From Rhodohalobacter sp. SW132 (lineage in GTDB: Bacteria; Bacteroidota; Rhodothermia; Balneolales; Balneolaceae), in assembly GCF_003390325.1 (NCBI RefSeq), contig NZ_QUOK01000003.1:248001-312000 (forward strand): a stretch of DNA of 64,000 nucleotides, read 5' to 3'. Positions 8,176 to 53,838 of this stretch are shown here, piece after piece. The notes below the pieces were generated by a model. The model was not told the DNA's origin. It did not search any database and worked only from the letters and a program-made list of their open reading frames with translations. Positions within the stretch are counted from its first letter, which is position 1. Each line of letters opens with the position of its first letter. Both the position numbers and the translations under genes were made by a program.

Positions 8176-8376
8176 AAAGTTCGACTCGAAAGAGAGAACA
8201 GAATGAGGAAAGCCACGCTGAGGACGTGGCCTTTCGAAGTTCAGAGGTGCGTCCGTGAGTCTTTATTTAGATACGGGACTTCAACTCAGTTCATTGCCCT
8301 ATTCTACACACCCCTCGCCATCAAAATCGAGCTTGGCTCGTTTTGATGTGCATTCCCCCTCTCAAAGAGGGGATTT
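8176..8376. repeat. Degenerate inverted pair of CCCCTCT palindromic units
   Basis: The right unit (8306-8376) reads ACACACCCCT, then a hairpin (CATCAAAA, CGAGC, loop TTG, GCTCG, TTTTGATG), then CTCAAAGAGGGGATTTT. The left unit (about 8176-8253) keeps the GAAAGCCACG / CGTGG-CTTTC hairpin but has lost most of its flanking palindrome. Close relatives lie at 52.86-53.28 kb and 53.76-53.84 kb. The pair fills the 308-bp gap between the kinase and the USP gene, and no gene is seen there. Confidence 0.8.
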
Positions 8377-35930: not shown

Positions 35931-36157
35931 TACCTCGGGGCAGAGCCCGCGAGGTATCAAATTGGGTCCCATACCTTTTTGGTCGATATGGAGTTTATTC
36001 TGGAGTGTCCCCCTTTGAAGGGGGCAATGGGGGATGACCTACTGAGCTTCACAACAAGAAATGGACACTTCCAAACTCAGGAAGTCATCCCCCTGCTCAC
36101 TCCGTTCGCTTCCCCCTTCAAAGGGGGACTTTCATCCTTTCCGACCCTGAGGGTCGG
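35931..36157. repeat. Hairpins and an inverted pair of GTCCCCCTTTGAAGGGGG units
   Basis: Three structures fill the 354-bp gap. A hairpin with TACCTCG and CGAGGTA arms stands at 35931-35956. An inverted pair of units lies at 36007-36038 and 36094-36129, each with the palindrome CCCCCTTTGAAGGGGG and a GGGGGATGAC tail. The second unit also carries a short AAGCGAAC-type hairpin between these parts. A 7-bp-arm palindrome CCGACCC-TGA-GGGTCGG ends the set (36141-36157). They follow the patatin gene and could act as its terminator. No gene is seen. Confidence 0.8.
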
Positions 36158-52769: not shown

Positions 52770-52844
52770 GCAGGGTGCAGGGTGCAGGGTGCAGGGTGCA
52801 GGGTGCAGGGTGCAGGGTGCAGGGTGCAGGGTGCAGGGTGCAGG
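52770..52844. repeat. Heptamer microsatellite (GCAGGGT x10 plus 5 bases)
   Basis: Ten exact copies of GCAGGGT (52770-52839) and a partial GCAGG. It lies in the upstream region of the SbcD-like gene (start 52678, minus strand), 92 bp away. No spacers, so this is not a CRISPR. Strand slippage could change copy number. Confidence 0.95.
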
Positions 52845-52859
52845 AAACAAGATCGAAAA

Positions 52860-53277
52860 TTGGAAATCGAAAATCAGGGGTATGATCCGGAGCTTTGAAG
52901 GAATTACGGATCGTTTTTCAACTAACTGCCCCACTCAACACACCCCTCGGCCTGAAAATCTGCGTGCCGCAGTTTTCAGATCCATTTTCGCTTACGCGGG
53001 TAAAAAAAGGAACCCTCTCAAAGAGGGGATTATTAGTGACCTTAGTTTTTATAGGGGCAAAAAAATCTTCTTGAGGCATCTACAAATCCCCTCTTGAGAG
53101 GGGACAGATTTTAGAAAGTGAGCGAAGCGAACCTTTCGAAAATCAGGGGTGTGTCCCCGGAGCTTTGAAAGAATCTCAAAACACTTTCCCAGCACCTACC
53201 CCATCCACACACCCCTCGCCATCAAAATCGCACTTCGCGCTTTTTGATGTGCATTTCCCCTCTCAAAGAGGGGATTT
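52860..53277. repeat. Array of CCCCTCT palindromic units, two in inverted pairs
   Basis: Four unit traces are visible. A left-half trace (about 52860-52910: AAATCAGGGGTATGATCCGG) is followed by a minus-oriented unit at 52938-53031 with hairpin CTGAAAA, CTGCG, loop TGC, CGCAG, TTTTCAG. A plus-oriented unit lies at 53084-53160 (AATCCCCTCTTGAGAGGGG, then GAAAG...CTTTC, then GGGGTGTGT) and a minus-oriented unit at 53207-53277. The last ends exactly at the stop codon of the DUF559 gene. The region is otherwise without genes. Confidence 0.85.
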
Positions 53278-53663
53278 TAGAGTCCTAATTGTTTTTTCTG
53301 CTTGATAACCGTGGCTTCTATAACCCTGAGTACATTGTCAATCTCATTATACACCTCCTCATCCCAGAACCGGATGGTATGGAGTCCAAACGCTTTAAGC
53401 TGTTTCTCACGGAGCTCGTCTCTCTCACCTTGTTCATCAAGCAAATGCGTATACCCATCCAGCTCAATCACCAGGTAGAGTTCACTGCAGATGAAATCGA
53501 CTAAATAGTTACCGACCGGCCGCTGACGATGGAAATCAAAGCCCAACATCTGTTTTCCTTTCAGGTGATTCCAGAGTATAACCTCACTCAATGTGCTGTT
53601 ATTTCGCAACTCCCTGGCTCGTTGTTTCAATCTTGGGTTATAAGGAATGATAGGTCGTTTCAT
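53277..53663 (-). CDS. DUF559 endonuclease-like protein
   Basis: This 128-residue protein of the DUF559 (PF04480, Vsr-like) family has LSEVILWNHLKGKQMLG, FHRQRPVGNYLVDF and ELYLVIELDGYTH. The likely PD-(D/E)xK residues are Asp56 and Glu67-x-Asp69, with FWDEEVYN following. The family is related to very-short-patch repair and restriction endonuclease folds; no biochemical role is established that I know of. It stands alone. The stop codon TAA overlaps the terminus of the palindromic unit at 53207-53277, and an opposite-facing unit starts 97 bp before the gene (53760). This suggests a mobile or repeat-maintaining role. Confidence 0.85.
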   Translation of the reverse strand: MKRPIIPYNPRLKQRARELRNNSTLSEVILWNHLKGKQMLGFDFHRQRPVGNYLVDFICSELYLVIELDGYTHLLDEQGERDELREKQLKAFGLHTIRFWDEEVYNEIDNVLRVIEATVIKQKKQLGL

Positions 53664-53759
53664 GTTTTGCTCATTTAATTCATTGTCTATGAGTATGAGC
53701 CAATAATCAGTGTTGCCTTACAGTTTTTCCTAAATTAGAAAATAGATGAGGTTAAATTA

Positions 53760-53838
53760 ATCCCCTCTCGAGAGGGGACAGATTTGAGAAAGCCACGCCG
53801 ACTCCGTGGTCTTTCGAGAATCAGGGGTGTGTCCCGGA
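53760..53838 (+). repeat. Palindromic unit upstream of the DUF559 gene
   Basis: This is a full unit: AATCCCCTCTCGAGAGGGG, GACAGATTTGA, hairpin AAAGCCACG ... CGTGG-T-CTTTC, AATCAGGGGTGTGTCCC. It faces the unit at 53207-53277 so that their AATCCCC ends point inward to the gene. Confidence 0.88.

Follow-up and report, generated by a model that had tools for sequence, protein, structure and literature searches.

Stand-alone DUF559 nuclease genes lie between putative intrastrand triplex repeats and probably form, with them, a family of small mobile elements

In RAYT-REP systems, palindromic units flank the gene of the enzyme to which they belong and recur across the genome as inverted pairs, and their type corresponds to the lineage of the enzyme. 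The RAYT enzymes are single-strand transposases of the HUH (Y1) type, and REPs carry GTAG/CGTC tags. A second class of repeats, BoxC/PIT/TM, has been familiar since the 1990s from hundreds of bacterial genomes and is tied to genome instability; work by Maher in 2000 is said to be an earlier source on them. We know of no enzyme that makes or moves these triplex repeats, which have been treated as orphans. They are built of a C/T arm, a loop, a G/A arm and a mirror G-rich third strand, and single-stranded DNA of the E. coli motif was shown to fold in vitro into a stable triplex (Holder et al. 2015, PMC4666352). The same study found the motif in more than 260 genomes and associated the E. coli repeats with rearrangement; around the E. 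coli sites it reported no remains of a transposase or integrase, and its text contains neither the word "endonuclease" nor "DUF".

Nuclease genes and selfish palindromes that enter conserved genes have also been described. I-Bth0305I, an EDxHD homing endonuclease, is encoded by a small mobile gene in conserved genes, and Rickettsia palindromic elements (RPE) are selfish DNA of ~150 bp, with no nuclease gene, that lie in-frame in unrelated protein genes (PMC10969869). YcjD, the E. coli DUF559 protein, was assigned in 2005 to the PD-(D/E)XK superfamily, close to Vsr, and YcjD profiles detect Vsr (PMC1189080). Caulobacter VsrA, which has a DUF559 domain, triggers the SOS response when the methyltransferase ScmA is missing, which is consistent with nuclease activity in cells; the accessible part of that report deals with the functional link to ScmA, ties VsrA to mismatch-repair-like DNA damage, a role other than repeat mobility, and mentions no repeat association (PMC12907096). 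A literature search of incomplete coverage, with most subscription papers and bioRxiv outside it, found no paper linking DUF559 to repeats. Both halves of the system described here are known separately, and their link is the new part.

The window that we analyzed is a stretch of 64,000 nucleotides from Rhodohalobacter sp. SW132, a member of the Balneolaceae, and belongs to contig C3 of a 5.08-Mb genome. Both the open reading frame and a Pfam match of its 128-aa product (DUF559, PF04480, E 4.5e-32) confirmed a DUF559 gene at 53277-53663 on the minus strand, where it had been placed by an earlier, sequence-only reading of this DNA. The gene encodes a stand-alone Vsr/EDxHD-type PD-(D/E)XK nuclease domain. 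A Pfam profile search of the protein returned DUF559/MTES_1575 and nothing else, and the gene is the sole open reading frame between the flanking repeat units, with no known IS-family transposase by Pfam. An AlphaFold2 model of the protein (pLDDT 87) was matched by Foldseek most closely to PDB entry 3hrl, a Neisseria DUF559 protein of uncharacterised function (E 5e-8), and next to 3r3p, the catalytic domain of I-Bth0305I (E 1.5e-4). Residues E27, D56, E67, D69, H73 and D82 are among the columns invariant in 12 DUF559 homologs, and these conserved acidic and histidine residues, together with the 3r3p match, point to a Vsr-like catalytic domain of the EDxHD type. The model and its two structural matches support the predicted homing-endonuclease-like PD-(D/E)XK fold, in agreement with the Vsr-like fold that had been claimed previously.

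Repeat units in the window share one layout: a perfect hairpin (TCCCCTCT...AGAGGGGA) is followed by another stem-loop, whose sequence varies, and AGGGGTGTG stands at the end. The unit at 53205-53277 on the minus strand (hairpin TCCCCTCTTTGAGAGGGGA, variable second stem-loop, mirror third strand GAGGGGTGTG) touches the DUF559 stop codon, which abuts the unit's end. The unit at 53758-53836 on the plus strand (hairpin TCCCCTCTCGAGAGGGGA, second stem-loop, third strand AGGGGTGTG), whose inverted partner is degenerate, lies 5' of the gene. This stop codon contact and the inward-pointing AATCCCC ends of the two units had both been noted before and hold true. Another unit, at 53085-53156 on the plus strand (hairpin TCCCCTCTTGAGAGGGGA, second stem-loop, third strand AGGGGTGTG), combines with 53205-53277 into an inverted, REPIN-like pair (53085-53277 as a whole) whose AGGGGTGTG ends lie inside. 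A degenerate inverted pair at 52867-53031 has its unit ends at 52867-52884 and 52938-52960 and a broken hairpin end, CCCTCTCAAAGAGGGGATT, at 53013-53031. Between sbcD and this cluster, at 52775-52844, the heptamer GCAGGGT is repeated in tandem in ~10 copies.

Elsewhere in the window, a dispersed inverted pair without a DUF559 gene was found at 8191-8376, where 8306-8376 is 91% identical to 53205-53277 and 8191-8254 is a degenerate partner; the copy claimed at 8.2-8.4 kb is therefore real, while the claimed copy at 59.0 kb gave no significant match. A dispersed inverted pair at 36007-36129 represents a second unit type (CCCCCTTTGAAGGGGG...GGGGGATGA), which also adjoins the other DUF559 genes of the same genome on contigs C1 and C14; this pair was absent from the units listed previously. 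Altogether, the observations of the sequence-only reading were partly confirmed and its interpretation was partly supported. The hairpin CCCCTCT-N1-5-AGAGGGG occurs 32 times in the 5.08-Mb genome, in comparison to 0 for a reversed-pattern control, and BLAST of the 201-bp pair element against its own genome gave 38 matches, self included, so that recurrence of the units is not due to chance. Hairpins number 32 for type A and 74 for type B in this genome, which has 4 DUF559 genes, and both reversed-pattern controls gave 0.

The third half-site of the units mirrors the purine arm if T is accepted in place of A: perfect mirrors outnumbered perfect direct copies by 167 to 35, and across loci the mirror was the better fit in 195 cases vs 44 for the direct copy (P 7e-24). 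For the window units, the mirror third-strand score was 1.0, vs 0.57 on the wrong side. A pyrimidine arm, a loop, a complementary purine arm and a mirror copy of the purine arm make up the triplex-motif layout. Because of the mirror half-site AGGGGTGTG, which the sequence-only reading overlooked, failing to recognise the repeat type, we identify the units as putative intrastrand triplex motifs of the known BoxC/PIT/TM type; the assignment is made from layout, and the window unit differs in that its third strand comes after the second stem-loop. The window units, inspected directly, have no GTAG/CGTC tag beside their hairpins, and their conserved outer motif is AGGGGTGTG. E. coli BL21 carries a triplex motif, CCCCTCTGGGGAGAGGGTTAGGGTGAGGGG, between ycjD and fabI. 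A Shinella unit beside DUF559 (CCCCTCATCCGGCCCTTCGGGCCACCTTCTCCCCG, L149:4800-5000) presumably resembles the RIME1 repeats of Rhizobiales and the Bru-RS repeats of Brucella, and these may belong to the triplex-unit class.

The association of DUF559 with such units was measured in 20-kb regions around DUF559 genes, chosen from the strongest Pfam matches in 92 genomes of the same family and 296 of the phylum, with the other open reading frames in these regions as controls; many of these genomes are drafts and they are phylogenetically non-independent. A strict triplex unit was found within ~300 bp of 65 of 81 DUF559 genes vs 40 of 868 other frames at the same loci (Fisher test, OR 84, P 6e-57), and strict units on both sides were found for 38 of the 81 and for 0 of the 868. 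Pyrimidine-arm hairpins lay within 300 bp upstream of 59% of DUF559 genes vs 2.3% of controls, downstream of 59% vs 2.7%, and on both sides of 39% of 61 DUF559 genes vs 0/750 frames. Hairpin density was 3.3/kb within 250 bp of DUF559, 0.42/kb at 250-500 bp and 0.01-0.12/kb beyond 500 bp. The count of 92/118 is an underestimate, since at nearly all of the 20 loci negative by the strict definition, units can still be recognised, with mismatches or longer loops.

Units flank DUF559 genes in Balneolaceae, other Bacteroidota, Ignavibacteria, Desulfobacterales and CPR loci, often inverted (TCCCCTCTTGAGAGGGGATTTAGGGGTGTGT-gene-ACACACCCCTAAATCCCCTCTCAAGAGGGGA), and the same unit-gene layout was seen at loci L019-L027, which come from other Bacteroidota, Ignavibacteria, Desulfobacterales and one CPR genome. 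They were also present at 10/10 inspected loci of a plasmid collection, several records of which are whole chromosomes deposited as plasmids. These ten represent Cyanobacteria, Deinococcus and Proteobacteria, i.e., E. coli ycjD, Synechocystis, Pseudanabaena, two Deinococcus, Sinorhizobium, Shinella, Sphingomonas, Azospirillum and Neisseria; loci outside Bacteroidota numbered ~15. Thus, the association of DUF559 with the units is real and is broader than the sequence-only reading had guessed.

The nearest upstream and downstream units of DUF559 genes are inverted with respect to each other at 46 loci and direct at 12 (P 8e-6), which gives the block the terminal inverted repeats typical of DDE insertion sequences and MITEs; a Deinococcus psychrotolerans DUF559 gene, for example, is surrounded by an inverted repeat of about 60 nt. 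The third strand faces the gene at 34 loci and the hairpin at 12, the latter being the arrangement in the window. Such close flanking might suggest that the units are parts of the DUF559 gene itself, terminators or mRNA structures retained for expression control, given that they abut the gene ends, form stable hairpins and can overlap the stop codon. We find this very improbable, because most copies lie far from any DUF559 gene (32 type A and 74 type B hairpins for 4 genes in the window's genome), units occur upstream and downstream in either polarity, and some are translated within host proteins. Furthermore, the E. coli PIT/BoxC elements showed neither promoter nor terminator activity (quoted in PMC4666352).

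Next to the position of the units, their sequence was compared with that of the nuclease at 98 loci, with syntenic and same-genome pairs excluded. Similar units were shared by 38% of pairs with at least 65% protein identity, by 19% at 55-65% and by 0.6% at 35-45%, and in a Mantel test of unit against protein similarity, 0/1000 permutations reached the observed correlation. DUF559 paralogs of one genome carry different unit types, and in 34/40 cases the unit was closer to that of the nearest DUF559 from another genome than to that of the own-genome paralog (P 8e-6). Unit sequence therefore follows the DUF559 clade, even among paralogs within a genome. This matching could come from co-transfer of the block without recognition, but the solo copies oppose this as the sole cause.

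Solo copies were examined by counting type A and type B hairpins in the 92 family genomes, with clade A defined as DUF559 proteins at least 60% identical to that of the window. The median number of type A hairpins was 20 in genomes with clade A (n=12), 1 in those with other DUF559 alone (n=53) and 0, with a maximum of 3, in those with none (n=27), and the relation of type A solo units to clade was significant across these phylogenetically non-independent genomes (P 5e-6). Within one genus, the type A medians were 18 vs 1.5 (P 0.003). Type B hairpins followed the DUF559 clade of contig C1 (median 15.5 vs 1.0, P 5e-6) but were also raised in clade-A genomes, so that the specificity of unit for clade is not clean. 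These results showed that dispersed unit copies follow the matching DUF559 clade. The enrichment beside the gene and the rarity of units in genomes lacking DUF559 strongly support, as an association, the RAYT-REP-like nuclease-repeat system that the sequence-only reading had proposed. That reading had named two outcomes as refuting a functional link, a lack of enrichment beside DUF559 and units equally common where DUF559 is missing; both were checked, and neither was observed.

Some genomes depart from this pattern. Many type A units were found in genomes without clade A (31 in G048, 21 in G059 and 21 in G064), and type B units occurred despite no detected DUF559 (16 in G047 and 10 in G058); draft gaps, gene loss or another driver could account for the units in DUF559-less genomes. 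The units in DUF559-less genomes fit an explanation in which something else, e.g. replication slippage or another transposase, spreads the repeats and DUF559 genes accumulate between them because they are recombination hotspots or safe landing places, as do the association of E. coli triplex repeats with rearrangement (PMC4666352) and the finding that DUF559-containing segments of Legionella are hotspots of recombination and mutation (PMC12308824). Against it, under one flank rule applied in the same genome family, units adjoined 21/22 DUF559 genes (17 on both sides) and 1/29 GIY-YIG nuclease genes, and the other genes at the DUF559 loci were also seldom beside units (40/868). The tracking of unit type with DUF559 clade between unlinked loci, the dependence of solo copy number on clade within a single genus, and the units that accompany in-frame insertions in LeuRS and MetH on both sides also speak against DUF559 as a passenger, and we regard that explanation as unlikely.

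The in-frame insertions came from DUF559 matches in long frames. These had been considered as helicase fusions, a view that was rejected because the frames are in-frame insertions into host genes. The inserted DUF559 is flanked by translated units, e.g. SPSPKEKGA, PLPLGEDLGEGK and PPSGARG, and Pfam identified the surrounding host domains as LeuRS, HsdM, HsdR, MetH, and Eco57I-type and type ISP restriction-modification proteins, with restriction-modification methyltransferases among the hosts. In two further frames, DUF559 comes after a PurL-type amidotransferase domain or after HemD; in the window's own genome, a triplex unit joins DUF559 in-frame to the end of hemD (L003:565-1902, contig C14). 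DUF559 also occurs in frames of similar length (423-496 aa) in several other family genomes. Because the unit-DUF559-unit segment lies in-frame inside LeuRS, HsdM, HsdR and MetH, insertion is of the block as a whole. The inserted frames remain open and have units at their borders; Pfam scans of them showed no splicing domain, and no intron or intein was seen.

Comparisons of occupied and empty sites were made between species, in fast-changing loops or spacers. The span between NWIGKS and FTTRPDT of LeuRS is 31-50 aa in 27/30 genomes of one family and 180-232 aa in the other 3/30, where it contains DUF559 between two triplex units. In the LeuRS of other genomes (L161, L169 and L179), other palindromic repeats, such as GTCATTCCGAGCGAAGCGAAGGAATC and GGTCATGCTGAGCTTGTCGAAGCACC, occupy the same loop in-frame, without DUF559. 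The block of Deinococcus psychrotolerans lies between paaD and paaZ, and in Deinococcus sp. QL22 these genes are 83 bp apart without it; at about 76% identity this pair is suggestive and gives no exact boundaries. These between-species comparisons of variable loops and spacers yielded no nucleotide-exact empty site or target duplication, and no clean example emerged when plasmids of S. meliloti and Azospirillum were compared for empty sites; the N-terminus of the Azospirillum DUF559 genes differs between strains. Where gltB homologs were found in other genomes of the family, DUF559 was not next to them. The E. coli ycjD locus was rejected as a clean presence/absence site: the full ycjD-fabI arrangement is missing from about 38% of E. 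coli genomes, and in the ones inspected sapF is immediately followed by an efflux operon (L151 and L152, vs L154), which indicates gene replacement rather than an empty site.

DUF559 is patchily distributed, with 1-9 copies in 65/92 family genomes and unrelated paralogs in one genome, some copies are broken by stop codons, and the DUF559 protein of an Ignavibacteria locus is 68% identical to a Bacteroidota protein. This patchy presence, the interrupted copies, insertion within genes and close relatives across phyla indicate a mobile gene. They are also hard to reconcile with a Vsr-like mismatch-repair, host-protection or defence nuclease for which hairpin or triplex repeats are substrates and whose adjacency to them is due to selection and not mobility. 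Detection of Vsr by YcjD profiles (PMC1189080) and the SOS response that VsrA triggers when ScmA is missing (PMC12907096) would suit such a housekeeping role, which we nonetheless judge to be quite improbable. Two DUF559 matches at G017:C1:330877 and 334128, ~3.2 kb apart, are identical in score and length, which suggests duplication of the segment at or between units.

Mobility encoded by the element itself is the reading that we prefer. Stand-alone DUF559 and its flanking triplex units probably constitute one small mobile-element family; most likely, DUF559 nicks or mobilises the units, as the sequence-only reading had supposed. The DUF559 nuclease would recognise its own unit type, probably as a single strand or extruded as a hairpin or triplex, and would nick or cut at the unit or at a target. 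Break repair or replication could then copy the ends, with or without the intervening gene. A block that contains the gene would be autonomous in its spread, and inverted unit pairs that lack it, some 120-190 bp long, would spread as non-autonomous REPIN- or MITE-like copies. The resident DUF559 clade would thus determine which unit type prevails in the genome. All observations would be covered most simply by a nuclease of the homing type that recognises the structured ends belonging to it and provokes their copying, whether or not its gene goes with them.

Comparison with the described systems places this element between several of them. It resembles RAYT-REP in the palindromic units on either side of the gene, in their dispersal as inverted pairs and in the match of unit type to enzyme lineage, but it is not a member, because the enzyme has a PD-(D/E)XK (Vsr/EDxHD) fold and is not HUH, and the units are untagged and carry a mirror triplex-forming third strand instead. 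On function alone, one could class it as a REP-RAYT variant; enzyme and repeat are outside that family. The units share the arm, loop and third-strand layout of BoxC/PIT/TM, one of which adjoins E. coli ycjD, whereas those repeats have been described as orphans and the link to DUF559 is made in this analysis. With I-Bth0305I the system has in common the fold and a small mobile nuclease gene in conserved genes; unlike with EDxHD homing endonucleases, no intron or intein was seen around the DUF559 block, which would not be spliced out and whose end repeats would also spread alone. Like RPE, it is palindromic selfish DNA in-frame in unrelated protein genes, but the insert has its own nuclease ORF and triplex ends. 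Vsr and VsrA belong to the same nuclease superfamily.

DUF559 is almost always found between triplex units and the two appear to move together, which makes it the best candidate yet for the spreader of triplex repeats. The system is best read as a selfish gene resembling homing endonucleases, with triplex repeats for ends, which it would spread in the way that RAYTs spread REPs, although enzyme and repeat are unrelated to theirs. We lean, with less assurance, towards the wider proposal that DUF559 is a pan-bacterial, dedicated mobiliser of triplex repeats, the minimal element being two triplex ends and a homing-type nuclease of ~120 aa that reads DNA structure, spreads non-autonomous pairs and lodges in-frame in essential proteins without splicing. 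Independent tests tie a widespread domain of unknown function to the triplex repeats, and each orphan thereby gains a candidate partner; as a laboratory E. coli strain carries both ycjD and BoxC, the question is testable there. This type of element appears to combine a homing-type nuclease, recognition of DNA structure and tolerated in-frame insertion in essential genes.
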